Origin: a virus
IMG/VR virus record: IMGVR_UViG_3300023235_000012
Location: 62,001-126,000 of that record
DNA length: 64,000 bases
Strand: one strand, 5' to 3'
A program made the translations under genes and the position numbers. Positions 16,696 through 62,255 of the stretch are shown here, piece after piece (the stretch's first letter is position 1; each line of letters starts with the position of its first letter). Under the pieces are notes generated by a model, which worked only from the letters and a program-made list of their open reading frames with translations, did no database searches and was not told where the DNA came from.

Positions 16696-17193
16696 TTAGT
16701 CGTCTTTTTTATATTCGGCTCTAAGATCTTCTTTGTACTCTCGAATTAATATTATCTCATTGTTAAACTCTGGAAGATCGTCCACCTTAATGTCTCCGGC
16801 ATCATAACTGAAAGTAAGATGAGGCTTGTAATCTGGAAAATCAGAAGTCGCTTCATGCTCAGTCATAAGTGTTTGATTTCTTTCTTTGATTTCTGGGCAA
16901 TCAATTTTCAAAACAAGACAATTTGGATTTCCTTCGATATGAGTACTAGTCCAGATGTCAAACCTATCGGATTTAGCAGTGATCGGATATATATCCCGTG
17001 CAGCTTTATAGTTTGGGCACGGCTTCTTAGAATAAAGAAGAGTGATGTGTAGCTTCTCTGAAGTTAGTGCATTCTGAATCTTATTTTTATCCATATATTC
17101 TTTGATATGATCCAATGTTTCTTCTGCAAGATGGATTCCGACGAAAGTTCCCGGTTGTTCTGTTTCCATAATCAATAATTCCTTAATCTTCAT
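16696..17193 (-). CDS. Acb1-like 2H phosphoesterase (candidate anti-CBASS)
   Basis: 165 residues with the two catalytic H-x-T motifs of the 2H superfamily: His49-Ile-Thr51 (LHITLLYS) and His125-Leu-Thr127 (PHLTFSY), 76 residues apart. Size, fold order and the LYSKKP context resemble T4 gene 57B product Acb1, which hydrolyses cyclic oligonucleotide signals and so blocks CBASS immunity. The N-terminus MKIKELLIME matches a capsid-targeting-like peptide shared with four late proteins in this window. Other 2H functions (ligase-like or tRNA-related cyclic phosphodiesterase) are not excluded. Confidence 0.75.
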   Translation of the reverse strand: MKIKELLIMETEQPGTFVGIHLAEETLDHIKEYMDKNKIQNALTSEKLHITLLYSKKPCPNYKAARDIYPITAKSDRFDIWTSTHIEGNPNCLVLKIDCPEIKERNQTLMTEHEATSDFPDYKPHLTFSYDAGDIKVDDLPEFNNEIILIREYKEDLRAEYKKDD

Positions 17194-18289: not shown

Positions 18290-18290
18290 G

Positions 18291-20489: not shown

Positions 20490-20532
20490 TATAACCTCCT
20501 TCTGTCTATTGTCAGACAGGTATTACGATAAA

Positions 20533-20553: not shown

Positions 20554-20595
20554 TTTTGAAAAGATGACAAGGGAATTAACCCCTGCCATCTGATT

Positions 20596-21717: not shown

Positions 21718-21730
21718 AGTTACTCCTTTG

Positions 21731-21769: not shown

Positions 21770-21852
21770 CCATTGTGAAATTTAACTTCCACAATATTAT
21801 TTAGTCTTTATTCTCATTAGTCTATTCATATTACAATAAAGAGGAGATTTTT

Positions 21853-22134: not shown

Positions 22135-22148
22135 ACCCGGCCTCGCAT

Positions 22149-28327: not shown

Positions 28328-28366
28328 ATTTTTATTATAATACTTTTTCTCAGAATTTCAAAAATA

Positions 28367-28855
28367 TTATTGAGGCGCAGAATACAATCCTTCAATATTG
28401 GGATCAGGAATTAACATTGCATTGGTGATATGAATCGCTTCATCCAGCGTCGGGACGATAAAGCCAACGGACTCACGCACCATTGCATGCCAGTGTGGAT
28501 TTCCTTCTTGCATGACTGCAACGCATGGAACGTTGAAAGCCTTTGCCCATGCTATCTCTATTACGGTTCCAATACTGACTGCACGTGCACCGGCGAAATT
28601 AGCGATCACCATATCGGCACGTCGACAATCATTAAAGTCCCTTGCGGTAATACCTTTCGCACAAGAAAGAGCAATATCTTCATAGGTGTCCTGAATATTT
28701 TCAACCTGGCTCAAATATGTTTTCCCACGTAGAGGACTCATTCCAGCGATGCTCGGATCCAATTTCTCTTTTGCATATTCTCTCCAATCAGTAGCTGTTC
28801 CATATGACAGTCCGGTAATTGGTCCTGCTAAATACGCGATATATCGATAACTCAT
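28367..28855 (-). CDS. Nucleoside 2-deoxyribosyltransferase-like protein
   Basis: 162 residues. N-terminal YLAGPITG and central DFNDCRRADMVIANF with GTVIEIAWA are typical of the nucleoside 2-deoxyribosyltransferase superfamily (including DUF4406 members and dNMP hydrolases). Probably acts on nucleotide bases to alter the deoxynucleotide pool. The exact substrate is unclear. Confidence 0.75.
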   Translation of the reverse strand: MSYRYIAYLAGPITGLSYGTATDWREYAKEKLDPSIAGMSPLRGKTYLSQVENIQDTYEDIALSCAKGITARDFNDCRRADMVIANFAGARAVSIGTVIEIAWAKAFNVPCVAVMQEGNPHWHAMVRESVGFIVPTLDEAIHITNAMLIPDPNIEGLYSAPQ

Positions 28856-34079: not shown

Positions 34080-34107
34080 ATTATAACACATCACGAGAAA
34101 AAGTCAA
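34080..34107 (-). promoter_or_regulatory. sigma70-like promoter
   Basis: Minus-strand TTGACT (34107-34102), 16-base spacer, perfect TATAAT (34085-34080), 31 bases upstream of the gene at 33735-34049. It overlaps the end of the last MORN-repeat gene. Confidence 0.75.
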
Positions 34108-34622
34108 GTGATTAATGCTTTCACTAACTCTAGTTCTTTTCGTCCGCCTGATTCCCAGGCTATTTTCAACGTTGGATTCTCTTCACCCATAGCAGTTGAA
34201 TAGATGAGTTCATTGTATTCCCACCATTCTTCAGCTCCATTTACATATTCAATAGCAGGACCATCTTCACGATGCCGTTCTCCATCTAACCACCATTCTT
34301 TGGACCCATTTACATAATATTCAACAGCCGGACCCTGTTCACGATGACGTTTTCCATTCACATACCAATATTTATTTCCATATTTGGAATAAGCCGCAGG
34401 GCCATCTTCACGATGGAGTTGTCCATTCAGATACCATGCGTTGAATCCATCTGGTGAAATAACAGCCGGACCCTGTTCACGATGCCGTTCTCCATCTAAC
34501 CACCATTCTTCATATCCATCTGGGCAAATAACAGCCGGGGCTTGTTCTCGATGGAGTTGTCCATTCAGACGCCATTCTTTAGATCCATCTTCGCATTCAC
34601 TCATTCTTGATTCATCGATCAT
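34104..34622 (-). CDS. MORN-like repeat protein, copy 5 of 5
   Basis: 172 residues with five 23-residue repeats of the type xEWWLDGERHREQGPAV, then a capping unit ending in NELIYSTAMG and the tail NPTLKIAWESGGRKEL. Repeats of this kind resemble MORN-variant/YwqK-like repeats that form a beta hairpin sheet. Function unknown; cell-surface, scaffold or antitoxin-like roles are known for relatives. ATG overlaps the stop of copy 4. Confidence 0.8.
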   Translation of the reverse strand: MIDESRMSECEDGSKEWRLNGQLHREQAPAVICPDGYEEWWLDGERHREQGPAVISPDGFNAWYLNGQLHREDGPAAYSKYGNKYWYVNGKRHREQGPAVEYYVNGSKEWWLDGERHREDGPAIEYVNGAEEWWEYNELIYSTAMGEENPTLKIAWESGGRKELELVKALIT

Positions 34623-35134
34623 GATATCAAAGCTTTCACCAAATTGAATTCTTCTCGATTATCTGATTCCCAAGCTTTTTTCAACGTGAGATTCTCTTCA
34701 CCCATTTCAGTTGAATAGATGAGTTTATTGTATTCCCACCATTCTTTGGATCCATCTGAGTGTTCAATTGCGGGTCCTTGTTCACGATGCCGTTCTCCAT
34801 TCAGATACCATTCTTCAGCTCCATCTGGCCATATAACAGCCGGACCTTGTTCACGATGGAGTTGTCCATCTAACCACCATGTTTTATATCCATCTGGCCA
34901 TATAACAGCCGGACCTTGTTCACGATGGAGTTTTCCATTCAGATACCATGCTTTATATCCATCTGAGTCTATAATTGCCGGACCATCTTCATTATGGCGT
35001 TCTCCATCTTTCCACCATTCTTTAGTTCCATCTGGTGATATAACAGCAGGGCCTTGTTCACGATGGAGTTTTCCATTCAGATGCCATTCTTTAGATCCAT
35101 CTTCAAGTTCACTCATTCTTGATTCATCGATCAT
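34619..35134 (-). CDS. MORN-like repeat protein, copy 4 of 5
   Basis: 171 residues from the ATG at 35134, which overlaps the stop of copy 3 and gives the N-terminus MIDESRMSELEDG shared with copy 5. The longer frame to 35185 only reads through copy 3. Five repeats plus cap; one repeat has HNED in place of HRED. Tail NLTLKKAWESDNREEF. Confidence 0.78.
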   Translation of the reverse strand: MIDESRMSELEDGSKEWHLNGKLHREQGPAVISPDGTKEWWKDGERHNEDGPAIIDSDGYKAWYLNGKLHREQGPAVIWPDGYKTWWLDGQLHREQGPAVIWPDGAEEWYLNGERHREQGPAIEHSDGSKEWWEYNKLIYSTEMGEENLTLKKAWESDNREEFNLVKALIS

Positions 35135-35973
35135 GATATCAAAGCTTTCACTATATTGAATTCTTCTCTTGAACCAGATTCCCAAGCTTTCTTCAAAATT
35201 GGATTCTCTTCACCCATTTCAGTTGAATAGATGAGTTCATTGTATTCCCACCATTCTTTGGATCCATCTGAGTGTTCAATTGCGGGTCCTTGTTCACGGT
35301 GGAGTTGTCCATTTAACCACCATTCATTGGATCCATTTGATCGTATAACAGCTGGGCCTTGTTCACGATGCCGTTCTCCATTCAGATACCATGCTTTATA
35401 TCCATCTGGTGATATAACAGCAGGGCCTTGTTCACGATGGAGTTTTCCATTTAAGAACCATTCTTTGGATCCATTTGATCGTAAAATTGCCGGACCTTGT
35501 TCACGATGGAGTTGTCCATCTAACCACCATGTTTTATATCCATCTGGCCATATAACAGCAGGGCCATCTTCACGATGCCGTTCTCCATCTAACCACCATG
35601 CTTTATATCCATCTGGCCATATAACAGCAGGGCCATCTTCACGATGCCGTTCTCCATCTAACCACCATGCTTCAGCTCCATCTGGTGATATAACAGCAGG
35701 GCCTTGTTCACGATGGAGTTTTCCATTTAAGAACCATTCTTTGGATCCATTTGATCGTAAAATTGCCGGACCTTGTTCACGATGCCGTTCTCCATCTAAC
35801 CACCATTCTTCATATCCATCTGGGCAAATAACAGCCGGGGCTTGTTCTCGATGGAGTTGTCCATTCAGACGCCATTCTTTAGATCCATCTGGGCAAATAA
35901 CAGCCGGGGCTTGTTCTCGATGGAGTTTTCCATTCAGACGCCATTCTTTAGATCCATCTTCAAGTTCACTCAT
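35131..35973 (-). CDS. MORN-like repeat protein, copy 3 of 5, longest
   Basis: 280 residues, ten repeats plus the cap. Several 69-bp units are nearly identical in DNA, a sign of recent expansion. The expected upstream ATG at 35990 (coupled by ATGA to copy 2) opens only six codons before a TGA: the other copies read AAGAATGAG at this point but here one A is missing, so translation must use the inner ATG at 35973. Tail NPILKKAWESGSREEF. Confidence 0.78.
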   Translation of the reverse strand: MSELEDGSKEWRLNGKLHREQAPAVICPDGSKEWRLNGQLHREQAPAVICPDGYEEWWLDGERHREQGPAILRSNGSKEWFLNGKLHREQGPAVISPDGAEAWWLDGERHREDGPAVIWPDGYKAWWLDGERHREDGPAVIWPDGYKTWWLDGQLHREQGPAILRSNGSKEWFLNGKLHREQGPAVISPDGYKAWYLNGERHREQGPAVIRSNGSNEWWLNGQLHREQGPAIEHSDGSKEWWEYNELIYSTEMGEENPILKKAWESGSREEFNIVKALIS

Positions 35974-35986
35974 CTTGGTTCATTTG

Positions 35987-36571
35987 TCATGAGATCAAAG
36001 CTTTCACCATATTGAATTCTTCTCGATTACCTGATTCCCAAGCTTTTTTTAATATTGGATTCTCGTCACCTATATCAGTTGAATAGATGAGTTCATTGTG
36101 TTCCCACCATTCTTTAGTTCCATCTGAATCTATAACAGCCGGACCTTGTTCACGATGCCGTTCTCCATCTAACCACCATTCTTTGGATCCATTTGATCGT
36201 AAAATTGCCGGACCTTGTTCACGATGGAGTTTTCCATTTAAGAACCATTCTTTAGTTCCACCTGGTGATATAACAGCCGGACCTTGTTCACGATGGAGTT
36301 TTCCATTTAAGAACCATGCTTCAGTTCCATCGGGCCAAATAATAGCCGGACCATCTTCACGATGGAGTTTTCCATTTAAGAACCATTCTTTGGATCCATC
36401 GGGCCAAATAATAGCCGGACCATCTTCACGATGGAGTTCTCCATTCAGACACCATTTTTTGGTTCCATTTGGCCTTTCAACAGCTGGGCCTTGTTCACGA
36501 TGCCGTTCTCCATTCAGACACCATTCTTTAGATCCATCTTCAAGTTCACTCATTCTTGGTTCATTTGTCAT
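35987..36571 (-). CDS. MORN-like repeat protein, copy 2 of 5
   Basis: 194 residues, six repeats (SKEWCLNGERHREQ type) plus cap EHNELIYSTDIG. Its ATG overlaps the stop of copy 1 (36568-36571). Tail NPILKKAWESGNREEF. Confidence 0.8.
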   Translation of the reverse strand: MTNEPRMSELEDGSKEWCLNGERHREQGPAVERPNGTKKWCLNGELHREDGPAIIWPDGSKEWFLNGKLHREDGPAIIWPDGTEAWFLNGKLHREQGPAVISPGGTKEWFLNGKLHREQGPAILRSNGSKEWWLDGERHREQGPAVIDSDGTKEWWEHNELIYSTDIGDENPILKKAWESGNREEFNMVKALIS

Positions 36572-37014
36572 GAGATCAAAGCTTTCACCATATTGAATTC
36601 TTCTCGATCACCTGATTCCCAGGCATTCTTCAATATTGGATTCTCTTCGCCTATATCAGTTGAATAGATGAGTTCATTGTATTCATACCAATATTTATTT
36701 CCATATTTGGAATAAATCGCAGGACCATCTACTCTATGACGTTTTCCATTTAAGAACCATGCTTCATATCCATCGGGCCAAATAATAGCCGGACCTTGTT
36801 CACGATGCCGTTCTCCATTCAGATACCACTCTTTGGACCCAACTTGACCTTCATATGCAGGGTAATATACTCTATGACGTTTTCCATTCAGATACCATTC
36901 TTTAGTTCCATTTGACCGTATAATTGCCGGACCATCTTCACGATGGCGTTCTCCATTCAGACGCCATTTTTTGGTTCCATCTAGATATTCAGTCATTGTT
37001 GGTTCATCGGTCAT
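36568..37014 (-). CDS. MORN-like repeat protein, copy 1 of 5
   Basis: 148 residues, four repeats, two of them diverged (KRHRVYYP, KRHRVDGP), plus cap. First gene of the array. It has no Shine-Dalgarno. Its ATG is 7 bases past the -10 box of the promoter at 37021-37049 and lies within one arm of an inverted repeat, so the mRNA is probably leaderless. Confidence 0.78.
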   Translation of the reverse strand: MTDEPTMTEYLDGTKKWRLNGERHREDGPAIIRSNGTKEWYLNGKRHRVYYPAYEGQVGSKEWYLNGERHREQGPAIIWPDGYEAWFLNGKRHRVDGPAIYSKYGNKYWYEYNELIYSTDIGEENPILKNAWESGDREEFNMVKALIS

Positions 37015-37031
37015 GTTATTAACATAACATG
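37012..37031. repeat. Inverted repeat over the -10 box and start codon of the MORN operon
   Basis: Perfect 8-bp arms CATGTTAT and ATAACATG around TAAC. One arm contains the start codon, the other part of the -10 region. Could be an operator for a repressor or an RNA hairpin hiding the start. Confidence 0.6.
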
Positions 37032-37049
37032 ATAATTAAGGTGAGTCAA
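37021..37049 (-). promoter_or_regulatory. sigma70-like promoter of the MORN-repeat operon
   Basis: Minus-strand TTGACT (37049-37044), 17-base spacer, TATGTT (37026-37021). Six bases separate the -10 from the ATG, so the start site should coincide with the start codon. Confidence 0.6.
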
Positions 37050-37056
37050 GCAGAAA

Positions 37057-37524
37057 TTATGATTTTACCCAGAAATTTTCCCACGGAAAACATATCCATC
37101 GGTCTTCATCTTTTCGATTAATTTCTCTAGCATAGAAATCAGGATTTATTTTCTGTGCGGTATTGTACCAAAGACTAGCAACTCTATAATTCATCGACTC
37201 TCTAATCATAGTTCCTTTTTCTTTTTTGAACTGACTTTCGATTTTTTCAAATGTGGAACCAGAATCTATAATATCATCGAAGACTAGCACGTAGTCTTCT
37301 TTTGTCATGTCTAATAATGAATCTATTTTCAGTTTTTTGTGATCTCGCAAAGAACAATGAATGATGTCTACTGGACAATCAAACCATTGCGCAAGAAAAA
37401 CAGCTGGAATAAGACCACCGCGACTTATTCCAAAGATATGATTCGGATGGAATTTTTTGAAAGTCATCTGTCGAGCAATTTCAATCATATCACCTTCGAA
37501 TTGTTCTTGTGAATAATGAATCAT
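37057..37524 (-). CDS. Phosphoribosyltransferase (Gpt/Hpt-like)
   Basis: 155 residues. The PRPP-binding loop is VLVFDDIIDSGST; the N-terminal GISRGGLIPA is the usual PRTase segment. Likely purine base salvage (hypoxanthine, xanthine or guanine), or formation of a modified nucleotide, given the preQ0 genes next to it. Coupled to a 14-codon frame upstream (not listed). Confidence 0.82.
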   Translation of the reverse strand: MIHYSQEQFEGDMIEIARQMTFKKFHPNHIFGISRGGLIPAVFLAQWFDCPVDIIHCSLRDHKKLKIDSLLDMTKEDYVLVFDDIIDSGSTFEKIESQFKKEKGTMIRESMNYRVASLWYNTAQKINPDFYAREINRKDEDRWICFPWENFWVKS

Positions 37525-37572
37525 GCGTTTTCCATCTCAAATAAAGGTCTCATTTCATCTATCATTCCTTTC

Positions 37573-38370
37573 TCACTCTGAAAAACTTTTACTTGATTGG
37601 ATTAGACTATAGAACTCGGCACGAATAGCATCAATCTCTTTGAATTTACCACCTAGATAGGTAGTACACATATCACTGCTATGCTCCCGTACACCTCTTG
37701 AAGTCATGCAATGATGCTCTGCTTTCACGATCACCGCGATATCTTCTGTTTGTGCGAATTCTTTCAATGCACTGGCGATCTGGGTAGTCATCTCTTCTTG
37801 GATTTGTGGACGATAAGCGATGTGATGAACTATCCTATTGAACTTTGATAAGCCGATCACACAATCACCGGGGACTACGCCGACCCAAGCCTTCCCGACG
37901 ATGTTTTGAAAGTGGTGGGCACAGGTGCTGTGGATTGAAATCGGCCCGGCGGTATAGAGACCATCATACCCCATGTTTGGAAAAGCTGTTATTTCCGGAG
38001 GAGGTGAGTAACGCCCTCCGAAAATTTCTAGCACCATCATCTTGGCTACACGATTTGCCGTGTCTATGGTGTTGTGATCATTAGCGGTGTCAATTATCAA
38101 TGATTCAAGCACGCCTTGCATTTTCTCAGCAACTTCATCGATCAGAGCATCAATTTCACCTTCATTGATAAATTCACTTATATTATCATTGCATCTAAAA
38201 GTAACTTTATCAGAACCATTCTTATTATTATCAATAATCCTTTCTTTGATCACATTTGATATTTTGAGATTTTCTATTATGTCAATGGCATAAGACATCT
38301 GATTTTTTATCTCTTTCAATTCATCTGCATCTGATTCGCTGATGAGTTTCTTTATGTTTTCAACAGTCAT
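37573..38370 (-). CDS. folE: GTP cyclohydrolase I (FolE)
   Basis: 265 residues. The C-terminal 190 residues are a GTP cyclohydrolase I domain with zinc ligands in STCAHHF and EHHCMTSRG, and the conserved GLSKFNRIV. The N-terminal 75 residues are an extension not typical of the family. It makes dihydroneopterin triphosphate, the entry to both folate and preQ0 synthesis; the queC and dpdA genes nearby favour the latter. Confidence 0.92.
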   Translation of the reverse strand: MTVENIKKLISESDADELKEIKNQMSYAIDIIENLKISNVIKERIIDNNKNGSDKVTFRCNDNISEFINEGEIDALIDEVAEKMQGVLESLIIDTANDHNTIDTANRVAKMMVLEIFGGRYSPPPEITAFPNMGYDGLYTAGPISIHSTCAHHFQNIVGKAWVGVVPGDCVIGLSKFNRIVHHIAYRPQIQEEMTTQIASALKEFAQTEDIAVIVKAEHHCMTSRGVREHSSDMCTTYLGGKFKEIDAIRAEFYSLIQSSKSFSE

Positions 38371-38407
38371 TTTTTCTCCTTGTTTAATTTTTAATTATAA
38401 GACTTTT

Positions 38408-39244
38408 CTATTGATTGTTCAATTTGTTTCTTGCTTGATCAATTAAAATACCAAATTGCTCTGAGAACGGATCATTATCCTTAAAGAAACGAATCATCAT
38501 ATCTACCATATTCAATTCATCTCTATTGGATGCGTCTTCTGAATAAAGAAAGTCAATAAGATAATTGATCATATTTTTCTGTTGGATCTCTGAATCTGTT
38601 GGATGAATCACATAATCTTCTGTAAAGCCATTCAATCCAAATGACAAAAATCTCTTAGTGCACTGTTTACATTCACCGCAAGGTTTTCCATCTTTTGGAT
38701 GCCAGCAACTTATGCTCGAATCACGAATTTCTTTGGCTGTTAATCCATTAGTAAGAGCCCATTTCACACATTTTTCCTTTGTCCACTCTTCTTCGACAAA
38801 AGGAAATACTAATTTACAATCATCTAGGAATGGACTTAAAACATACGACAAGAGTTCACTTGTCATATTTCGAAACTTTTCATTTTTGTCGGTTCCTTTT
38901 GGATTGTCTTCATCCCACACCGTTCCCATCCAAACTTCATTGGCTAATTCTTGCGATGCTGCTAAAACACCAAAGACAAGATTCCGGCCAGGAATATAAA
39001 TTGCTCCGGCATACGGATCATCTTTCTTTGCAATTGGTTTGATTGTATCATTCAACCAATCCACCTTTCGAACAATGACGAATTCTGGTAAACTATCTAG
39101 CTCTTCTTTTTCAGCTGCCTGACCGTGTGCAAAGAACAGGCATTTCACTTCTGCTTCGGGGTATTTGATTTTAGCATAATGGTACATCAAGAAGGAATCA
39201 AGTCCTCCACTGTAAAGAATAACTATCTTCTTTGCTTTATTCAT
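38408..39244 (-). CDS. queC: QueC-like 7-cyano-7-deazaguanine (preQ0) synthase
   Basis: 278 residues. PP-loop ILYSGGLDS at the N-terminus and the zinc cysteines near 180-200 (SCW, CGECKQC). Makes preQ0 from CDG. A C-terminal extension of about 60 helical residues follows the QueC domain. Its ATG overlaps the TGA of the frameshifted gene upstream. Confidence 0.9.
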   Translation of the reverse strand: MNKAKKIVILYSGGLDSFLMYHYAKIKYPEAEVKCLFFAHGQAAEKEELDSLPEFVIVRKVDWLNDTIKPIAKKDDPYAGAIYIPGRNLVFGVLAASQELANEVWMGTVWDEDNPKGTDKNEKFRNMTSELLSYVLSPFLDDCKLVFPFVEEEWTKEKCVKWALTNGLTAKEIRDSSISCWHPKDGKPCGECKQCTKRFLSFGLNGFTEDYVIHPTDSEIQQKNMINYLIDFLYSEDASNRDELNMVDMMIRFFKDNDPFSEQFGILIDQARNKLNNQ

Positions 39245-50021: not shown

Positions 50022-51896
50022 TCATATGGCCATCCAAGCTTTTCTATCATCTGCTCTCTTACCGTCGAAAATCAAGTTTAGCGTTTCCTCTAGCTTGCCA
50101 TCATCTGTTAATAAAATCAAGCGGGGATTATCAATCGCGTGCTTCCAATTTTCCTTTCTCAACGTCCCTAATCCTTTTGCACGTCTAACCGTGGCTCCTT
50201 TCCAATCACTAGACTTGAACTGTTCATAATCGTTGCTATACCAATAATGTCTTTCTTTTCCTTTTTCAACGATGATAAATGGTGTCAAGAAAATATAAAA
50301 GAATGGATTTTTTTCATCAAAAAGTTCAGGCCAAAATCGATAGAAGAAGTTGGTCAAAAGAGCAGTGATGTTTGCACCATCTTGATCCATGTCACATGCG
50401 ATGTAGACCTTACCGTATCGTAGACCTTGTCTATTTGCTGGTTGTCCAATGACAAGTCCCAAGCTATTCATTATATCTGCTAGGGCCTTGGACTCGAGGA
50501 CTTTCTTGGGATTTTCTCCGTGAACGTTCATGACCTTTCCTCTAAGAGGAAGTCCACCGTGAAGTTTAGGGTTTCGAACGTTTGAAAAACCTGAGATAGC
50601 TGAATCGCCTTCTGCTAGCATCAAGATGCAATCAGTTCTGATACGACTCGTGGCATCCATAAGACTAGGTATCTTATTTCTAAGGTTTCTCTTCGCTTCT
50701 CTCGTTACATCCGCTTGATCTTTCTTTTGTGTACGAACCGCGGTACGTTCAAGGATTTCTTCCACCCATTTTTTGTTCTGTGAAATTACCTGCTTAAACA
50801 ATTCCTCTTGATCAAGTTGAGCTCTGATTGGTTTCTTCACTTCTTCATTGATCAATTTCGTTTTCGCCTGATTCCCAAAATAAGGAGCCTTCATCTGCGT
50901 TACACTAAAAATCAAAAGACCCTCGAGTAAATCAGAACGATTTGGGACCAGTTTTTGTCTCCGAGCAGGTTTCTCCAAGGCTTTAAGCATCTGATAGGTA
51001 AAAATTCGCTTGAACTCATCAACGTGCTCGCCACCATCAAAGGTTGGCACGTTGTTTACCAAGCTATGAACATGATCGCCTTGTTCCGTCACGTTCGGAA
51101 GAACATAAAAAACAGATTTGAAATCTTCTTGCTCGATAGTAAAGATGATCGGCTTCTGTGTTCCAAAAAGTGTCTTCTCTAAGCTTGCTTTTGCTTGTAC
51201 CTTCTTTCCATTAAAATAAATCTTCAGCTTCGGGTTTGCTGCTGCAATTTCAAGGAGACGGGATTCTAAAAACTCGATTGGCAAGGTGAGGTTTTTGAAC
51301 ACTTCTTCCGATGGTCGGAAGTGGATGAACGTCCCTGTTCTTGGACTACTGTTCTTTGAAATTTTTGGTTTGAAAATCTGAAGGGCATCATCTACCGCGT
51401 TTCCCTGTGTGAAACGCTGTGTGAATTTTTTTCCATCTCTGATAATTTCGACCTCAAAAAACTCTGAGCAATAATTTGCAATAGAAGCACCCACACCATT
51501 CATTCCGGCGCCGACTCTCATGCTATCATCAAAGTTTCTGCCTGCCCTCGCTTCAGAAAGGACCATCGTCGCGAGGTACTCTTTATGGGTCTTATCTTTT
51601 TCGATTGGTATACCACGACCGTTGTCTCGAACACTGAAGTCCATTTTTTCTTGATCGTAGGTTACGTCAAGGCGATCACCGTGTTTTTTTCCAATCAATT
51701 CATCCAATGCATTATCGATGATTTCTCTGACTGCTGTCAAAAGAGCAGGTACCCAAATCATCTCTTTTACCACTGCCTTTCCACCTTCGAACATTAAAAC
51801 AGTCTGTGCGTGGTTTGATCTGGACCCAAAATAAGTTTCTGTTCTCAACCTTGCGTGCTGATAGTCAGATAACTTCTTGATATCATCGTCTTTCAT
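50022..51896 (-). CDS. 39: DNA topoisomerase II ATPase/TOPRIM subunit (gp39/60)
   Basis: 624 residues. GHKL ATPase motifs IIDNALDE, RDNGRGIP and GAGMNGVGAS; TOPRIM motifs LAEGDSA and DMDQDG. In T4 the subunit is split into gp39 and gp60; here it is one polypeptide. A late-type GTAAATAA element is 30-40 bases upstream. Confidence 0.93.
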   Translation of the reverse strand: MKDDDIKKLSDYQHARLRTETYFGSRSNHAQTVLMFEGGKAVVKEMIWVPALLTAVREIIDNALDELIGKKHGDRLDVTYDQEKMDFSVRDNGRGIPIEKDKTHKEYLATMVLSEARAGRNFDDSMRVGAGMNGVGASIANYCSEFFEVEIIRDGKKFTQRFTQGNAVDDALQIFKPKISKNSSPRTGTFIHFRPSEEVFKNLTLPIEFLESRLLEIAAANPKLKIYFNGKKVQAKASLEKTLFGTQKPIIFTIEQEDFKSVFYVLPNVTEQGDHVHSLVNNVPTFDGGEHVDEFKRIFTYQMLKALEKPARRQKLVPNRSDLLEGLLIFSVTQMKAPYFGNQAKTKLINEEVKKPIRAQLDQEELFKQVISQNKKWVEEILERTAVRTQKKDQADVTREAKRNLRNKIPSLMDATSRIRTDCILMLAEGDSAISGFSNVRNPKLHGGLPLRGKVMNVHGENPKKVLESKALADIMNSLGLVIGQPANRQGLRYGKVYIACDMDQDGANITALLTNFFYRFWPELFDEKNPFFYIFLTPFIIVEKGKERHYWYSNDYEQFKSSDWKGATVRRAKGLGTLRKENWKHAIDNPRLILLTDDGKLEETLNLIFDGKRADDRKAWMAI

Positions 51897-54324: not shown

Positions 54325-54336
54325 TATTTATAAATA
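54325..54336. promoter_or_regulatory. Bidirectional late promoter
   Basis: A palindromic TATTTATAAATA gives perfect TATAAATA on both strands (plus 54329-54336; minus 54332-54325). It should fire toward the holin gene on the minus strand and the gene at 54362 on the plus strand. Confidence 0.7.
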
Positions 54337-54361: not shown

Positions 54362-55411
54362 ATGAGAATTAAGGAAATTATTTCAGAAGAAACGGCGGCG
54401 AGCTTGAAAAGCAAGCTCGCCAAAGCAATCAAGGCTCTGCCTGATGATAACTCTTCTGTCAAGGCTCTACAGGAGATCGAGGATATTCTGCAGCACGTCA
54501 ACGCTGGTGGAAAGATTGGGATCATCAAAGGACACCTTCGTACGCTCGATGATCCTGAAGTTCAGAAGGCTCAGAAAGAATTGGCTAGGTACCTTCTTTC
54601 AATTGAAATGACCCAAACAGATCGGAAAGAACTTTTCACCGAATGGAAGAACGATAACATCGTGAGAAGAGAGATTTTGCTGAAACCTGGCAAAACCTCT
54701 AACTTCAGTGATATTTTTAATCTTTATGATACCAACCCTGCTGCTAGAGAATTTATCGAAGATGTGATGAACGTCTCGGCTTTGGGACAAGGGAAAGGTG
54801 AGTTTGGTCTCAGTGTCCTTAGTTCAAAAATCAACAAACAAGCAGGAAAAGGTGACCTCAATATTGATGGAAAGGGAATTGAGGTTAAAACTGAGGATGG
54901 CGGAGCCGGGAGATTTACTGATCAAGAAGTTCGTCCTGGGCCAGGATTTGAACAAGCCGCTCGAGATCTTGAAACTTTTGTTAGAGAAAATGGATTTAAA
55001 TTTTCACCGTCTGGATTGAACCTAAATGATTCAATACGACTTGGTCAATCTTTGGAAGGTGAAATAGAAAAAGAATATTTTGAACATATTGAAAAAGTGA
55101 TTTCCTTAATTTTTCATGGAACCGACATCAATCCTATTGTTCAAGCTATTCGTTCAGGTGATTCGGGTAGGGCAAAGCAAGCGTATGCACAATCTTCATT
55201 CAATTATTACTTTAATCAAAAGAAAGATGATTATGGAATTCTTTATATCAATTTACGAAAAAGCCCGATGGAATTCACGTTCTTTAGAAACACTGTTGAC
55301 TTAACTAAGGGTGGATTAAGACTGCACGCGAAGACAATCTATCTATCAAACGTGAAAGATCCAAGACTCAATTATCCTCAGATTAGTATCACTCCAACAT
55401 CTAGGAATTAA
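54362..55411 (+). CDS. Late protein with capsid-targeting-like N-terminus
   Basis: 349 residues, unrecognised. Starts behind AGGAAGGA. The N-terminus MRIKEIISEE resembles the T4 capsid-targeting sequence, with a possible cleavage after IISE (I-x-E). The C-terminal half resembles a restriction-endonuclease-like fold in parts (GDLNIDGKGIEVKTEDG, with an ExK), which would make it a candidate packaged nuclease. It overlaps the opposite metallophosphatase gene by 11 bases at the 3' ends. Confidence 0.7.
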   Translation: MRIKEIISEETAASLKSKLAKAIKALPDDNSSVKALQEIEDILQHVNAGGKIGIIKGHLRTLDDPEVQKAQKELARYLLSIEMTQTDRKELFTEWKNDNIVRREILLKPGKTSNFSDIFNLYDTNPAAREFIEDVMNVSALGQGKGEFGLSVLSSKINKQAGKGDLNIDGKGIEVKTEDGGAGRFTDQEVRPGPGFEQAARDLETFVRENGFKFSPSGLNLNDSIRLGQSLEGEIEKEYFEHIEKVISLIFHGTDINPIVQAIRSGDSGRAKQAYAQSSFNYYFNQKKDDYGILYINLRKSPMEFTFFRNTVDLTKGGLRLHAKTIYLSNVKDPRLNYPQISITPTSRN

Positions 55412-55952
55412 CTTTTACGTTAGTTTTCTTGATGGCGTTCATATACTCGACGATTTCATCAAACTCCCATGGAGTAAAATTATGAGTGTCAACCCCTACA
55501 TCTAAACGGAGTTTTCTGTTTCCGTTGTCCCATGTTTCTTCAGTATATTTTCCATGTGAATGGCCGTGTAGATGAAACGAATTATGGAAACTTTTATTCC
55601 ACGAACCTATCGGATAATGAAAAAGAATCAAATCATATCCTTGGTGCTTTAACTCAAAATATTGATGAACTTGGTTCCATTCGGACAATGAGCGAACGTT
55701 ATTGCGATCATGGTTTCCTGCAATTAAAATCTTTCTTCCATTAAGGGCTCGAAGGATTTCTTTCGTTACATTTATATCACGGTAGAATGCAAAGTCACCG
55801 ATATGATAAATCGTATCTTTGGGACTCACCACCTTGTTCCAATTTTCTATCATTGCCATATCCATGTCCGTGACAGAATCAAAAGGACGGGTGCAGAATC
55901 GTATAATCGATCGATGACCGAAATGATTGTCTGAGGTAAAATGTATTTTCAT
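55401..55952 (-). CDS. Metallophosphoesterase
   Basis: 183 residues. Calcineurin-type motifs TSDNHFGH, GDFAF, AGNHDR, and HGHSHG. Small phosphodiesterase or nucleotidase of the type common in T4-like phages. Substrate unknown. Confidence 0.85.
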   Translation of the reverse strand: MKIHFTSDNHFGHRSIIRFCTRPFDSVTDMDMAMIENWNKVVSPKDTIYHIGDFAFYRDINVTKEILRALNGRKILIAGNHDRNNVRSLSEWNQVHQYFELKHQGYDLILFHYPIGSWNKSFHNSFHLHGHSHGKYTEETWDNGNRKLRLDVGVDTHNFTPWEFDEIVEYMNAIKKTNVKVNS

Positions 55953-55966
55953 AATAAATTATAACA

Positions 55967-57343
55967 TCAACTCCAATGATGGTCAAATTCTTTCTGAATA
56001 AATGGATACATCTCTAATCCATTTCTTTTGACGATTTTGTAAAACTCTTTAATGATGAATTTCGCCCTTGGATGTTTCTTTACCAATTCCCAGATCTTAT
56101 CGAAGTGCTTGAGATCATCTGGGTTTGTTCCTTTACCGAACATTAATTCAGCCGCTTGTTTGGGATCTTGAATGGTTTCATATTCTTGATCATTAAGGTC
56201 TGGATGTTCCCATTTTTCCATATCTCTGACACCAGTGAGGTTTCCAGTGTATGGAACTTTCTTTCCTTTCTTTTTCTGCTGGAATTGCTTGATCATCCCC
56301 CGGCCCCTACCATACTCGTAACCTACTCTTGCTACGATATCACCGTTATCATCGAGTTTCAGATTTCCTGTGTTTTGGATGATAGCTTGTATCAAATTTC
56401 CTCTATGGGCACCAGAAACCTTGGAAGGAACTCCGCCCATCGCCCATTTCAACCATTTAGCATCTCCAGTGATGAAATCGACCTGTACTCTATTAGGTTC
56501 TTCACCAACGATAGGGATAGCTGCTTTTGCTAACTTCTTTACGTGCTGGAACTGAACGTTATCTTCGCCTAGAGATTTCATCAGATTATTGTAGAGATCG
56601 TCTAGATTGGTGTCTGGAGGGACAATGACATCAATATCACCCGAAACTGGTTTTAATCCTGCAGATCCAAGCATGTGATTCTTTAACCATTCAAACGGGA
56701 TCCCGCTGAATTTTGCCACATTCTTCAACGTAGGTACAATATTTTCTTTCTTGATTCCAGTCGTTCCAGGGAAGGCCATGCCACCTTCGTTGAGGTCTCT
56801 TTTGTTTTCAAAATAGATAAAATAATCTACTGTTGCGTCATCTTTGATCTGATTTACTGTTTCTTTTGATTTTTCTACTGTTCTTTCTATTTTGTATTCT
56901 TGTTCAGGTGGAATTCCTCTCCCACCCGAAGAAATTCGATCTGCATTTTGTTTTAGAGCTTGTTCTAATGAGACATCAACATAAAAAAGAACAGTGGTAA
57001 ATCCACGTTTCTTTGCTGCTTCAAATCCTTTCAGGATAGGTCCTGGATTCTGTCCCACTTGATGTCGGACAAATGATTGACCTCTCAGAATAAATTCTGC
57101 TTGTCTTCGTTCTGCTTCTGCACGAGATTTTCCAGTCAATTTAGAATCAAATTCACCTAGTGATAATTCTTGATTGATTAGATCAGTATCAATTGATTTT
57201 AATTTCCCAAGAAATTGATCTTGTACCCATGATTTACCGGCTCCTATTGGTCCCGCCATCATAATAAAAACAGGCCCTTCAATCTTTTTTATTTCATGTG
57301 GAGAAATTTTCTTTGATTCTACAAGCAACTCTTTAATCAACAT
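55967..57343 (-). CDS. P-loop kinase fused to a nucleotidyltransferase, capsid-targeting-like N-terminus
   Basis: 458 residues from the ATG at 57343, which has AAGGAG 10 bases upstream. N-terminus MLIKELLVES fits the capsid-targeting pattern with L-V-E. The first domain has GPIGAGKS and resembles Zeta-toxin/polynucleotide kinase P-loop proteins; the second has GSAGLKPVSGDIDV and VQVDF, the signature of a pol-beta-like nucleotidyltransferase. It overlaps the following gene's stop by 11 bases. A role in modifying a host nucleic acid or nucleotide is inferred. Confidence 0.7.
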   Translation of the reverse strand: MLIKELLVESKKISPHEIKKIEGPVFIMMAGPIGAGKSWVQDQFLGKLKSIDTDLINQELSLGEFDSKLTGKSRAEAERRQAEFILRGQSFVRHQVGQNPGPILKGFEAAKKRGFTTVLFYVDVSLEQALKQNADRISSGGRGIPPEQEYKIERTVEKSKETVNQIKDDATVDYFIYFENKRDLNEGGMAFPGTTGIKKENIVPTLKNVAKFSGIPFEWLKNHMLGSAGLKPVSGDIDVIVPPDTNLDDLYNNLMKSLGEDNVQFQHVKKLAKAAIPIVGEEPNRVQVDFITGDAKWLKWAMGGVPSKVSGAHRGNLIQAIIQNTGNLKLDDNGDIVARVGYEYGRGRGMIKQFQQKKKGKKVPYTGNLTGVRDMEKWEHPDLNDQEYETIQDPKQAAELMFGKGTNPDDLKHFDKIWELVKKHPRAKFIIKEFYKIVKRNGLEMYPFIQKEFDHHWS

Positions 57344-58910
57344 ATTTCTGAAGCTCCTTGAAGAATTTATGAACACCCGGCGGGGTCAATTTCTTAAACT
57401 CCTCTTCATTTTCAGATTCTATTGCTTGGAATGTCCTAGTGGCAGAAACATTTTCTGCCGAATCCATATCTCGCTTAACTTCGATGACCTCTACGTTCGG
57501 TGATCTCTTCAATTGATCCTTATAAGCATCTACTCGATCAGATCCAGCAATGACTGCGTTGATCATTCTTTTTGATTTGTTAAGAGCTGTCAAAATATTT
57601 CCAGTGCTGACTTCCATAACATCAACTCCAGGAAAAACTGATTGTACCATCTTTTTTCTCAATTCAAATGGTACTTTAGTATCTTTTCCAGTGACCAATG
57701 CTACCACAACATTATTTGCTACATCTAATCCTTGTTGAATGGCACCAGCGTGTGCTGTTGTCAATACTCTCATTTTTCCAATAAACAGAGCATTCTTATT
57801 TTCCGGCATCGATCTGACCACCAATTCTCGACCAGTCAAATAAACATCGTCTTGGATTTGATGTTGATCTTTTTTTGGATGGTCAGGAAGAATGTCCTCA
57901 TCAGCTTTATAAACTACCGCACTAAATTGTTTAAGTTTTTGGTTTATTGATCCATCTTTAAGTTTTCCAGCTATTTTCTTAGCGAGAGAATTTACTTCTG
58001 CCCAATATTGATTTTCTTGTTCTTCATCATCCGCTTTCCACTTCATCTTCTTCTGCATGCGAACTTCTTTATCATGCTGATCAGTCTGTAGGATCTTGAA
58101 GAAGTTTCCATCATCGCTTAATAAGACTACTCCTTCTTCTTTACCGCCGAATGGGGATTGAACAGATCGGAACATTTCTTTGATAGCCTCAAATGTTTGA
58201 AGCCAATCCTGGAAGTCCATTTGATCCTTATGTTGTTCATAAGCATTTAATAGTTCTTCTGATTCAATTCCTTTTCTAATCTCAGAATGACTATTAAGCT
58301 TTCCTTTGAATATTTGAGGTGGTGTCATCATAGATAGCGCTGCTGCGTATTCATCAACCCGGTCTTGATTGAATCCTTGTGGAGCGGTTCGGATCATCCC
58401 ACCTTCTATCACTGCTTTCGAAGGAGCGTAAGCCAGAAGGACCATTGCATGATATTTTTCATAGTCTCTAGTGGTCGTCGGCTTGTTCATAATAAACTCA
58501 ACGAACATCTCTGTCTCTTCTGGAATCATCTTGAGATTTTTATGATTTTCTTCCAGATGATCATGAACCAAAGCGTATTGGCTAACAGAAGTCGATTTTG
58601 TCTTGATCTTTTCTCGATCAATGGTTTCAAAATCCTCTGGGAACATGATCCGGTTCTTATAAGCTACTACCCAGTTTTTACTGTAGTCATTTGGATCATA
58701 AGGTTGATTGTTTCTCCAAAGTGTTAATTTTACGCCATCGAATTTTTGTGTGACGGTGACGTCTAATGACAATAATTTTTGGATTTTTGCAGGAACAGGA
58801 TTTTTCTTAGAGTCAGCAACTGCCTTGTCGACATTGGTGATACTTATGTCCAACATGTCGCCGCCGGCTTCTCTAAGCTGCAGGCTCTCTGTTAATTCTC
58901 TAATCTTCAT
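57333..58910 (-). CDS. Ligase-like adenylyltransferase fused to an NMNAT-like domain
   Basis: 525 residues, N-terminus MKIRELTESL (L-T-E). Residues about 50-290 look like a nucleic-acid ligase core: motif I QKFDGVK with Lys56, motif IIIa-like EMFVEF, motif IV EEGVVLL, and motif V-like FKILQ. The C-terminal 160 residues are NMNAT-like: FIGKMRVLTTAHAGA replaces the usual HxGH by HxGA, and SATRTF matches the second motif. So one half may ligate or cap RNA while the other is a catalytically altered adenylyltransferase. Central gene of the three-gene cassette. Confidence 0.75.
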   Translation of the reverse strand: MKIRELTESLQLREAGGDMLDISITNVDKAVADSKKNPVPAKIQKLLSLDVTVTQKFDGVKLTLWRNNQPYDPNDYSKNWVVAYKNRIMFPEDFETIDREKIKTKSTSVSQYALVHDHLEENHKNLKMIPEETEMFVEFIMNKPTTTRDYEKYHAMVLLAYAPSKAVIEGGMIRTAPQGFNQDRVDEYAAALSMMTPPQIFKGKLNSHSEIRKGIESEELLNAYEQHKDQMDFQDWLQTFEAIKEMFRSVQSPFGGKEEGVVLLSDDGNFFKILQTDQHDKEVRMQKKMKWKADDEEQENQYWAEVNSLAKKIAGKLKDGSINQKLKQFSAVVYKADEDILPDHPKKDQHQIQDDVYLTGRELVVRSMPENKNALFIGKMRVLTTAHAGAIQQGLDVANNVVVALVTGKDTKVPFELRKKMVQSVFPGVDVMEVSTGNILTALNKSKRMINAVIAGSDRVDAYKDQLKRSPNVEVIEVKRDMDSAENVSATRTFQAIESENEEEFKKLTPPGVHKFFKELQKYVD

Positions 58911-58912
58911 TC

Positions 58913-60439
58913 TTATCCCTTAATTTCGTCTGAATCGGTTCCGGCAGAACGCAGGCGTTGATATGCTTCACCTTCTTTACCATAATAGATAAAGAGGATT
59001 TTTTGAAGAACTTTTTCTGGAAGTTTCGTCTCTGGAAACTTCTGACTGAATCTGTCTAGCGCGGCGACTTTGATGTCTTTGTCAATTTCCCAACGATCTC
59101 TTTCTAGAGCTTGTGCTACTTTATATTTGTTTATTTCATCTGGACTTGAAAGCTGCAAAGCTTCTTCTGGTCGGAATCCCCAGAGTCTGCGAATAAATTC
59201 ATCTCTTAAATCTTTAACAGACTGAGGATCGTCTCGATATTCTTCAACCAAATCCAACAGACCAACAAAAGATCTGAATTGTTTTATCTCCTGAGTAGAT
59301 GGTTGGGATCCAAATAATTTTTCGAACATTTCTACTGGACGATTGATATATCCAGAAGTAGCAGGATCCATTGCTTTGTAGGTCTTTTTGCCACCTACTG
59401 TAAAATGTGACCCATCAGGAAGTTTTTGTGCTTGCATTTTGTTACGTAAGCCATAAAGAACAGAGAAGGTTAATTCGCTGACGTCTTTCCCTTCTGCTGC
59501 TTTTGGAATTTTTGGAATTGATTTTTTGATTTCTTTCTCTAACTCGGTCTTTTTCTTTTTAAGATCCTTCAATTCTTTGCTTATCTCTTTTACCTTACCT
59601 TTAATTTCTGGTTCGGGTTTTATCTTGTTATCAATAACAAATTTCTCTTTTTCTTCAAAGTCAGTCGAAATTTCTTCAAGCTCTTTGGCTAATGCTTCTA
59701 CTTTCTTTGGATCGACAACGGTTGAAGCTGGAGTTAATTCTACCGAGTCTTTCACCTTTCCTAGAACATTAGCAACCGACTGTAATAGGAATTTATGAAA
59801 TACTCCTTTAATACCTGATTCAATATCTGCCCAATCACTTGAGTGACTAAATTTTGCCCATTCACTCGGTTTATTGTCTTCGAATTCACTTGCCTCAAAA
59901 TCAACCTGTCCAAGGACAGTTCCTCTTTCGTCAGTGTAATCAAATACTGCATTGATTTGTTCACCAATAGCAGAGGCTGCTTTCTTATTGTTACCTACAT
60001 AGATCACTTTATCAGTTATGTTTTTTCCTTCAATTCCTTTTAGAAAATCCCAAAGATCGTTAATAACATCTTTTGGTACAGAAACATCAATGTCGCCTAC
60101 CTTAGGCTTGTGTTTAACATAAAGTTTATCTTCTATGTCAGGATCAAAGAAGCTTTCAGATGAGCCGTTGAAAGCATGTCCAGAAGTGATAACTCTGAAG
60201 TCCGCCCAAATTGGTGTACCTGTCTGCTTTTCAAAGGCTTTGTTTAAATTATCAAACGCCGCTACGAAAGCGTCACGGACGTTAGAGCGGCCATGCTTCG
60301 TCAAGTCCATTTTTTGCGCGTATGCTGGCTCACCTTTCCAGAGCATAATATTTCCATCACTATCAATTGCTCTGGAGTTGCCACCTTCAAACATCTTTTC
60401 TTTTTTCGGTTCAATTTTGAAGAGTTCATATAATCGCAT
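58913..60439 (-). CDS. Nucleotidyltransferase-like late protein
   Basis: 508 residues. N-terminus MRLYELFKIE resembles the targeting peptide but lacks an exact (L/I)-x-E. Residues about 60-200 have TSGHAFNGSSES and KVGDIDVSVP with GQVDFEAS, the same type of pol-beta nucleotidyltransferase as in 55967-57343. A coiled coil of charged residues follows (about 265-320), then a helical C-terminal domain. Late-type AATAAATA is 20-30 bases upstream. Function unknown. Confidence 0.65.
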   Translation of the reverse strand: MRLYELFKIEPKKEKMFEGGNSRAIDSDGNIMLWKGEPAYAQKMDLTKHGRSNVRDAFVAAFDNLNKAFEKQTGTPIWADFRVITSGHAFNGSSESFFDPDIEDKLYVKHKPKVGDIDVSVPKDVINDLWDFLKGIEGKNITDKVIYVGNNKKAASAIGEQINAVFDYTDERGTVLGQVDFEASEFEDNKPSEWAKFSHSSDWADIESGIKGVFHKFLLQSVANVLGKVKDSVELTPASTVVDPKKVEALAKELEEISTDFEEKEKFVIDNKIKPEPEIKGKVKEISKELKDLKKKKTELEKEIKKSIPKIPKAAEGKDVSELTFSVLYGLRNKMQAQKLPDGSHFTVGGKKTYKAMDPATSGYINRPVEMFEKLFGSQPSTQEIKQFRSFVGLLDLVEEYRDDPQSVKDLRDEFIRRLWGFRPEEALQLSSPDEINKYKVAQALERDRWEIDKDIKVAALDRFSQKFPETKLPEKVLQKILFIYYGKEGEAYQRLRSAGTDSDEIKG

Positions 60440-60467
60440 TTCAATCCCCCATCCTTTCTTTTATTTA

Positions 60468-61238
60468 TTAGGAATTAAATCCTTCTGTAAAAGAAAGGGC
60501 CGATTTCAATTCTTGTGGTGCCACAATATTAATCACTTGTTTCAGACAAGGATCTTGAAAAAGATTTGGGAGTGCGAGAGTTTGTGCGAATTTCAAAGTT
60601 TCTGCTACGATTTTAGAAAGTTCAGATAATTCTCTGGCTATCGTCTCAGTTATTTCATTAACCGCGTTAGCGATAGCGGCGACCGCTGGTCCGATGACTG
60701 AAGCAATCGCAGCAACAACAGCAGTGATTCCTTCTCCTATTTTTTCAATGATAAGTGCCACTGCATCGAAAACTGTTGTCACTATTGGCTCTAATGCACC
60801 AGTCACTGAACCAAATAATCCACTTATCGCATCACATGGATTTGTCGGCGCTATACCTAAAGTCTCTTGCCTTGTCTTTTCCATTGATGAAAAGCTCATG
60901 TTCTTCACTAAATTGGCGGAACCCATCGATCCTGCTTTTCCAGAATCTGCGCCTTGGATACCAACCATATGAGTCTGTAACGATAACAAACCACCTTGAG
61001 CGTCATCTAATTGTTGAGCAGTGTCACTAAAAAATTCTGGATCTACACCTACGTCAATCAATTCCTGTGGATCATGTAACACGTCATCGGGATTATTCCA
61101 ACTGGCAAAGTAATCTTTTGCTAAAGTTAAGCTCGACATCGAGTCTGCCAACGTTTTCATTCCTATAGGTTGGAAACCTTGAGAATGAAGAACATTGTGA
61201 ATATCAGGAATGTTACTCGGTGATGTAATTGCAACCAT
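60468..61238 (-). CDS. Putative baseplate or virion protein
   Basis: 256 residues. Central small-residue-rich, Ala/Val-rich helical stretch (170-215) like a structural or membrane-interacting segment. Two short Cys-containing motifs (NPCDAISGLFG, QDPCLKQV) frame it. Placed directly downstream of the M15 peptidase and PAAR genes, so probably part of the baseplate hub region. No family recognised with certainty. Confidence 0.55.
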   Translation of the reverse strand: MVAITSPSNIPDIHNVLHSQGFQPIGMKTLADSMSSLTLAKDYFASWNNPDDVLHDPQELIDVGVDPEFFSDTAQQLDDAQGGLLSLQTHMVGIQGADSGKAGSMGSANLVKNMSFSSMEKTRQETLGIAPTNPCDAISGLFGSVTGALEPIVTTVFDAVALIIEKIGEGITAVVAAIASVIGPAVAAIANAVNEITETIARELSELSKIVAETLKFAQTLALPNLFQDPCLKQVINIVAPQELKSALSFTEGFNS

Positions 61239-61246
61239 TTTCTACC

Positions 61247-61969
61247 TCAGGCATAATGTAATGTAAGACCGCCACTATAATCGTTATTGATCATCGTCAA
61301 GACTTGTCTTCGTTGTGATCCGCTAGCTCCGTTGAAACTGACATGAAGCCAGATGTTATTTCCGTGTTCAAGAATAAACTGATCAAACAGGAGGTTATCT
61401 CGACAAAAATTTGCTCTTCTCAAATATTCTTGATTTGAGATCCCAGGCCATTGAACGTCCGCTGCCATTCCTCTTTCATGTTGACTTTTACCACCTGTTC
61501 CAGTTCTGAATCCAGAGTTAATCCTGAATCCTGGAAAAGCAGACCACAATGGCTCTAAGCAATTTTCACATAAAGACTTTAGATTACATATCATTTCAAG
61601 ATCGGTGAAACCATGCTGTGCTTGAATTGAATGAGAGAAGAATGCCCCAAGTGATAGATCTCTGACAGTGAAATTTCGAGATAACGAAAAACTATAATCA
61701 ACTTCCGTAAAATCACCACAAGAAGTAATCTCTGGTGAGATTGAAGATGTAGGCTCAGTTAGATCCGTCGGGCCAGAACTCGTAGTTGGTGGGTTATTCA
61801 ATGGATACGATTCAGGAATCTGGTCTTTGGTAACCTCTTCATCAAATGGTGCTTCTCTTCCTGCGACGGAAATCAGCTTTGCTGCTGCTTGTGGAGAGTA
61901 ACTATTGATAACTCCTACTGGAATATTTCCAGTATATGATGTCGATGAACAAGATGGATTGATTGACAT
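61247..61969 (-). CDS. M15-type peptidase domain protein (tail-associated)
   Basis: 240 residues from the ATG at 61969, one base after the PAAR stop. The longer frame to 62023 reads through the PAAR gene. The C-terminal 110 residues contain SQHERGMAADVQ (zinc His and Asp) and WLHVSF (last His), typical of the D-Ala-D-Ala carboxypeptidase (M15) fold. In this neighbourhood it may digest peptidoglycan cross-bridges during DNA entry. N-terminal 120 residues are low-complexity, Ser/Thr-rich, perhaps a linker. Confidence 0.8.
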   Translation of the reverse strand: MSINPSCSSTSYTGNIPVGVINSYSPQAAAKLISVAGREAPFDEEVTKDQIPESYPLNNPPTTSSGPTDLTEPTSSISPEITSCGDFTEVDYSFSLSRNFTVRDLSLGAFFSHSIQAQHGFTDLEMICNLKSLCENCLEPLWSAFPGFRINSGFRTGTGGKSQHERGMAADVQWPGISNQEYLRRANFCRDNLLFDQFILEHGNNIWLHVSFNGASGSQRRQVLTMINNDYSGGLTLHYA

Positions 61970-61970
61970 T

Positions 61971-62255
61971 TTACCCCGCGAAGACGTTTCCTGATCCTGT
62001 TGCGCAGAATGACCCGCATGCAATAGGATCGCCTATTCTAGCTAATTGAAGACCGTTTACCATAACGATAGGCGATCCTGCCGCCAGATTTGAGTCATGA
62101 CACGGAGGTGGACAGCAATGGGTCACCCAGTGATCTCCTAGTCGGTGTGCTGGGATTCCATTGACAAAAACATTCGAAGATCCTTGGTCGTTTGGGCGTG
62201 GTGGCCAACAATCGTGGCCGCTGCAAATATCTCCTAGTCTGACTACTGCTGGAAT
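61971..62255 (-). CDS. PAAR spike-tip protein, ATT start
   Basis: 94 residues. The PAAR signatures are clear: RLGDICSGHD, NVFVNGIPAHRLGD, WVTHCC and the C-terminal ARIGDPIACGS. PAAR proteins cap the baseplate spike. No ATG, GTG or TTG lies before the first conserved residues; AAGGAGG ends 6 bases before an ATT at 62255, giving M-P-A-V-V, which is just where PAAR proteins begin. Upstream in this frame are only ATA, TAT, CTA, TTA, AGG, AGG, TGT, ATC down to a TAA. So the start is ATT (or ATC). Confidence 0.9.
   Translation of the reverse strand: MPAVVRLGDICSGHDCWPPRPNDQGSSNVFVNGIPAHRLGDHWVTHCCPPPCHDSNLAAGSPIVMVNGLQLARIGDPIACGSFCATGSGNVFAG

Follow-up and report, generated by a model that had tools for sequence, protein, structure and literature searches.

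The leader genes and their setting

Why should neighbouring phage genes with dissimilar products open with nearly the same few residues? The question is raised by positions 54362 to 60439 of a 64,000-nucleotide window (bases 62001-126000 of the 137,267-base viral record IMGVR_UViG_3300023235_000012, labelled G000), where five genes lie together: F on the plus strand, then a phosphoesterase gene, G, H and I, all on the minus strand. An earlier reading of the letters without database searches (hereafter, the sequence-only reading) had proposed that F, G, H and I encode late proteins sharing a peptide like the one by which T4 targets proteins to its head. Our analyses, in which genes beyond those examined were called with a simple open reading frame (ORF) picker, indicate that the shared N-terminal peptide is probably a T4-type capsid-targeting propeptide, which would load a kit of RNA-repair and anti-defence enzymes into the head, be cleaved there and let the enzymes be injected. 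The leader genes of the interval keep the letters F to I; E denotes a leader-bearing Acb1 gene elsewhere in the window.

54329..54336, plus strand: T4-type late promoter box TATAAATA, 33 bp upstream of F
54362..55411, plus strand: gene F, 349 residues; PD-(D/E)xK-like GDLNIDGKGIEVKTE, by eye only
54362..54388, plus strand: leader MRIKEIISE of F; phi-x-E-phi-(L/I)-x-E, ordered as residues 4-10 of the T4 internal protein III (IPIII) leader
55401..55952, minus strand: metallophosphoesterase-like protein without leader, in the same operon; PHROG 547
55967..57343, minus strand: gene G, 458 residues; Zeta-toxin/AAA_33 P-loop kinase with a C-terminal Pol-beta-type nucleotidyltransferase (NTase)
57317..57343, minus strand: leader MLIKELLVE of G; start ATG at 57343
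57333..58910, minus strand: gene H, 525 residues; T4 Rnl2-like ligase domain (KxDGxK) fused to a PPAT/NMNAT-type adenylyltransferase; PHROG 27149
58857..58910, minus strand: leader MKIRELTESLQLREAGGD of H, starting MKIRELTE; (L/I)-x-E at LTE and LRE
58913..60439, minus strand: gene I, 508 residues; Pol-beta-like NTase (GDIDVSVP); PHROG 19290
60386..60439, minus strand: leader MRLYELFKIEPKKEKMFE of I, starting MRLYELFKIE; directly before the GGN start of all unleadered orthologues
60462..60469, minus strand: T4-type late promoter box AATAAATA, 30 bp upstream of the I-H-G operon

Each of the four leaders stands at a plausible gene start (that of G, an ATG at 57343 on the minus strand, is internal to an ORF whose first start codon is a GTG further upstream), and three of the four carry an exact (L/I)-x-E, as had been stated. 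The bodies, described as unrelated, are nearly so, but the C-terminal domain of G and the core of I share a weak Pol-beta NTase match (E ~1e-3).

The leader recurs across the genome

The family of four is real, but its size is about nine genes. When the proposed motif, M-[KRL]-[IL]-x-E-[IL], was run at every possible start of the 137 kb record (2240 possible ATG, GTG or TTG starts, ORFs of at least 60 residues), it matched nine genes and nothing else, and the five further genes all lie outside the interval. These five, which form an independent test of the motif, compare with 0.054 expected (binomial p ~4e-9); column-shuffled N-termini gave a mean of 0.14 matches and a maximum of 2 in 5000 trials. 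The pattern M[KR][IL][KRYN]E[ILF] fits 8 of the 2240 starts, every one a long real gene, MLIKEL being the ninth.

G000 18118-20115: gene opening MKLNELFSGE; ADP-ribosyltransferase (ART)-like YHGT motif by eye only
G000 20102-20824: gene opening MKINELFEG; HExxH motif by eye only
G000 21038-22786: gene opening MRIKEITEE; ART-PolyVal domain and metalloprotease-like HExxH domain
G000 27215-28372: gene opening MKIKEIFNLLE; CCA-adding enzyme (PF01743, 1e-31)
G000 78696-79193 (window 16696..17193), minus strand: gene E, opening MKIKELLIME; Acb1, which counters the cyclic-oligonucleotide-based antiphage signalling system (CBASS); PF23474, 4e-32, residues 15-163
Window 17152..17193, minus strand: leader MKIKELLIMETEQP of gene E, with the MKIKELLIME start

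The core phi-x-E-phi is found in all nine leaders, an (L/I)-x-E after the motif in seven, and the full phi-x-E-phi-(L/I)-x-E in two (F and G). Leader codons differ between the genes, with synonymous differences throughout, and the upstream DNA is unrelated; since the codons differ, the likeness resides at the protein level and points to selection on the protein sequence.

A possible tenth leader gene is an 84-residue ORF at G000 50900-51154 (L007), MKLYQVILENHD, which has Q in place of E and an ATAAATA box upstream.

The leader is a detachable module

Comparison with relatives shows the leader being gained and lost. In G002, whose gp23 is 91% identical to that of G000 and which has the same operon, I opens M|GGNSRA where G000 has MRLYELFKIEPKKEKMFE|GGNSRA, G has neither leader nor NTase domain, H keeps a short leader (MKINEING|MLDISI), and F is replaced by a protein that is unrelated but opens similarly, MRVNEVINLKEA. 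Eight unleadered I orthologues (G002, Vibrio SRILMA and six other contigs) open M|GGN, and leadered forms occur in G000 (..KMFE|GGN) and in the jumbo contig G017 (MKKEITPSLLE|GGN). Because both of these leaders end in E right before GGN, cleavage after E would restore the ancestral N-terminus of I.

The H orthologues of other contigs share a common body start, (L/I)DISI, preceded by leaders without mutual homology, most of which end in (L/I)-x-E followed by A, G, S or N (the leader ends read LIFE^A, YIVE^A, TILE^N, LLLE^S, YILNE^A, YLLE^G and FINE^S). At least 7 of about 10 distinct H-family leaders have (L/I)xE[AGS], against an interior background of 3-6%. The H orthologues of the Campylobacter phage CP220 and of Vibrio SRILMA have no leader and start where the tag ends, and homologues of the CCA enzyme in other phages likewise start without it. 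In AlphaFold models the predicted local distance difference test (pLDDT) is below 50 at residues 1-21 of H and 1-19 of I, with a confident body after. Thus, the leader lies outside the folded and conserved body, as unleadered orthologues start at the body and the predicted disorder covers the leader.

Similar N-termini were seen on other proteins. In G018 (L175-L184), three proteins open MKFKEIFYES, MKFKEMFLEA and MNFKELFYEN, which is the full T4 pattern and was found at 0 of 697 interior Met controls; generic (L/I)xE counts in G018 were weak. Another tagged nucleotide enzyme, an adenylyltransferase with the leader MRIFEVIKSN before GGRFQPMHKGH, occurs in the relatives G006 and G007 (L062, L073) and in G012 (L078).

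Link to the prohead and comparison with T4

Just beyond the window lies a T4-type head module with genes for the portal, a core protein of 69 residues that occupies the gp67 position, an acidic protein, gp21 and gp23, the last two flanking a gp22-like scaffold.

G000 130049-130690: gp21-type prohead protease (PF03420, 5e-24)

In relatives, the core protein beside the portal itself opens with the leader motif (MKIFEFYEA, MKLFEFYEA, MRVQELLEF, MRYTEL); its start is MILREL[FY] in about 40 marine contigs, MKLTELF in Atu_ph07 and MKINDIITEG in PA5oct. Searching the G000 core-protein sequence against phages gave no match, and the named relatives were reached via the portal instead.

The initial 10 residues of T4 IPIII are enough to direct a protein to the capsid, and this capsid-targeting sequence (CTS) packages foreign proteins too (PMC9026906); gp21 cleaves after L/I-X-E (PMC9026906; PMC5694885). 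The start of a T2 internal protein, read from its sequence, is MKTFKEFINEA. The leaders of F (IKEIISE) and G (IKELLVE) fit, shifted by one residue, the order of the IPIII leader, which we take to be YQEFIAE. As in the CTS of IPI, IPII, IPIII and Alt of Straboviridae, a putative propeptide of about 10 residues stands at the N-terminus of unrelated proteins, with phi-x-E-phi followed in most of them by (L/I)-x-E, in a genome that has a gp21 protease, a gp22-like scaffold, a core protein in the gp67 position and candidate late promoter boxes. In contrast to T4, the basic motif is one residue nearer the start (MKIKEL versus MKTFKEF), the cargo consists of large catalytic enzymes, mostly for RNA repair, and the motif is common to the small core protein beside the portal. 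In SPN3US and phiKZ, ejection proteins carry N-terminal propeptides that direct them into the prohead and that a gp21-related protease cleaves off (PMC5694885), a role like that proposed for G000, but those propeptides are mostly longer than 100 residues and cut at S/A-x-E.

Virion proteins of PA5oct and late promoter boxes

For the jumbo phage PA5oct, virion proteins were taken from the flags of its GenBank record, which derive from electrospray tandem mass spectrometry (ESI-MS/MS; 93 proteins flagged, 177 not). The pattern M[KRL][ILV]x[ED][ILFM] matches seven PA5oct proteins, six of them flagged (6/93 versus 1/177, one-sided p=0.0075), and leaving out the example that prompted this pattern, MKIKDILVES, gives 5 flagged versus 1 (p=0.020). 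The PA5oct homologue of the NTase domain of G is flagged, yet untagged. The virion mass-spectrometry table of the Rak2-like phage CBB contains too few motif matches to serve as a test. In G000, judged from sequence, an ATAAATA box of the late-promoter type lies upstream of 4 of the 9 tagged genes compared with 11 of 150 other genes (p=0.005); the portal gene has such a box as well.

Interpretation and alternative explanations

We interpret G000 as carrying a T4-type capsid-targeting system, which is known in kind but unusual in its enzyme-rich cargo; this is the best reading of the data. Given that a head-loading-like tag stands on at least nine otherwise unrelated proteins, the phage probably delivers the tagged enzymes as finished proteins, together with its DNA, when infection begins. 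The tagged proteins would be made late in infection and docked onto the prohead scaffold core by the peptide (M-[K/R]-phi-x-E-phi ...), with a motif with which the small core protein encoded beside the portal naturally begins. The gp21-type prohead protease would then cut after an (L/I)-x-E-like site, freeing the enzymes inside the head, from which they would be ejected with the DNA. The cargo would be mainly for RNA repair (ligase-adenylyltransferase, kinase-NTase, Pol-beta NTase and CCA-adding enzyme), together with ADP-ribosyltransferase-like and metalloprotease-like proteins and perhaps Acb1, and may act, ahead of any phage gene expression, on host defences that cleave tRNA or on CBASS. 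The capsid-targeting proposal of the sequence-only reading is supported by several independent lines: the modular gain and loss of the leader, the exact IPIII residue order in two of its four leaders, the core-protein motif and the PA5oct proteins detected by mass spectrometry, with further support from the gp21-type protease gene and the enrichment of late promoter boxes.

Several observations weigh on the other side. Two of the nine leaders (MKLNELFSGE and MRLYELFKIE) have no canonical (L/I)-x-E after the motif, and the G000 core protein itself starts MKHIEILEA, with H at position 3. Some orthologues in phages that encode the protease are without the tag, so that packaging of the tagged enzymes would not be obligatory. 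The PA5oct pattern was widened, allowing D and F/M, after the flagged MKIKDILVES had been seen; the motif exactly as first proposed yields 2 flagged versus 1 (not significant), a version with E only and I/L/F/M yields 4 versus 1 (p=0.049), and the generic (L/I)xE test alone gave no significant separation of the PA5oct virion proteins. Moreover, the flagged list includes likely co-purified enzymes (RNR, ThyA, ClpP), and the PA5oct result is for that reason support and not proof. For the G000 phage, docking, packaging, cleavage, injection and the purpose of the kit are inferred, the virion proteomics being that of another phage.

Other explanations of the shared peptide fare worse. A recent duplication of one 5' gene end by mosaic recombination could have spread a leader without function, as the neighbourhood of four tagged genes might suggest; however, five other tagged genes lie elsewhere in the genome and on both strands, and the DNA comparison, with its synonymous codon differences and unrelated upstream regions, contradicts a duplication at the DNA level, which we reject as extremely improbable. 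The peptide might instead be an assembly tag for another part of the virion (tail, baseplate or neck), with the cargo riding with the tail, since the I-H-G operon adjoins genes with tail- or baseplate-like products (60468-62023). This seems highly unlikely, as the core protein beside the portal opens with the same motif, the residue order resembles the T4 internal-protein leader, and (L/I)-x-E is the motif of the head protease (PMC9026906). The short helix in the AlphaFold models (residues 3-9 or 3-6) would also suit a packaging-neutral peptide, namely an interaction helix or an expression-favouring start with a common host or phage partner, e.g., a chaperone or the nucleoid. We consider this very unlikely too, given the gain and loss of the leader between phages with 91% identical gp23, the leader-body junctions that often end in E, the late promoter boxes and the presence of motif proteins in the PA5oct mass-spectrometry list.

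If the capsid-targeting interpretation is true, the head contents of a T4-like phage can be predicted from its sequence by means of a nine-residue motif, and the interpretation also suggests that the targeting peptide mimics the start of a core protein of the prohead. Enzymes of RNA repair, and perhaps Acb1, would in that case arrive with the DNA, so that phages could outrun instantly firing tRNA-cleaving and CBASS defences, and the leaders would provide ready natural tags by which enzymes could be loaded into phage heads. The open-access papers searched contained no description of such tags on Acb1 or on enzymes that repair RNA, which is not proof of novelty. Only tentatively do we extend the proposal to T4-like phages at large, which might preload their heads, via a transferable capsid-targeting peptide, with an RNA-repair and anti-immunity kit (ligase, kinase, NTases, CCA enzyme, Acb1 and ADP-ribosyltransferase) active before the first phage transcription; even the Acb1 of T4/T2, which opens in a leader-like way (MEFKDF), may be injected without having been recognised as such.

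Acb1

The product of gene E is Acb1 by its domain; its tag is the least certain of the set. Acb1 starts elsewhere are also tag-like (T2 MEFKDFSTG|LYVA, Vibrio MKLSKFLESQG|TYVG, PspYZU05 MKLSELNRG|FYAA), and in view of these T2, Vibrio and Pseudomonas phage N-termini the start may belong to the Acb1 family itself, or a tag may be a general feature of Acb1. We regard it as an even call whether Acb1 stands outside the set, with an N-terminus that resembles the tag only by appearance. The Acb1 gene has no late promoter box, which agrees with an intrinsic start; on the other hand, the extension varies in length from 9 to 16 residues, precedes the Pfam domain, and matches the tag closely in both G000 (MKIKELLIME) and G017 (MKVNELLEKE), whose leader, MKVNELLEKETVKG, resembles that of the G000 Acb1.

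This G017 orthologue, with leader MKVNELLEKETVKG, lies at 261870-262370 (L204 1870-2367) of a 306 kb jumbo phage contig. In T2 (L029), at 977-2140, acb1, whose product opens MEFKDF, immediately precedes two genes for internal head proteins.

Cargo proteins and neighbouring genes

The kinase/NTase, the ligase fusion and the second NTase named by the sequence-only reading hold, but its possible nuclease (F, at 54362) is here assigned no identity. In the ligase half of H, K56xDGxK61 and E259G260 are invariant in the alignment, and the nucleotidyltransferase fold gave a Foldseek match to T4 Rnl2 (2hvr, 4e-6). By fold, the assignment of I as a Pol-beta-like NTase is weak, and a PDB sequence search with I returned nothing convincing. 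Around HExxH, the product of G000 20102 matches that of 21038 over a stretch of sequence (8e-4). PADLOC made no defence-system call on the tagged cargo beyond weak coiled-coil-type matches. Single-protein scans of viral contigs for relatives of H, F and a protein labelled C found none; relatives of H were recovered with an alignment of H instead.

Jumbo-phage RNA-repair sets combine an ATP-dependent RNA ligase, kinase, phosphoesterase, Pol-beta NTase and CCA enzyme (PMC7824862), all of which are also encoded by G000; there they were described as phage-encoded enzymes, whereas in G000 all but the phosphoesterase carry head-loading-like tags. Like the injected ADP-ribosyltransferase Alt of T4, the tagged product of G000 21038-22786 has an ADP-ribosyltransferase domain (ART-PolyVal), but it belongs to another ART family and is fused to a metalloprotease-like HExxH domain.

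At window 5984-8353, an NMN-adenylyltransferase-like gene (NF002243, 3e-11) adjoins a nicotinate phosphoribosyltransferase gene (PRK05321, 8e-115), possibly a pair for NAD+ salvage of the kind that counters NAD-depleting defences. At window 34104-39014, about five related ORFs stand in tandem, with an opening repeat like MSELEDGSKEWxLNGxxHRE.
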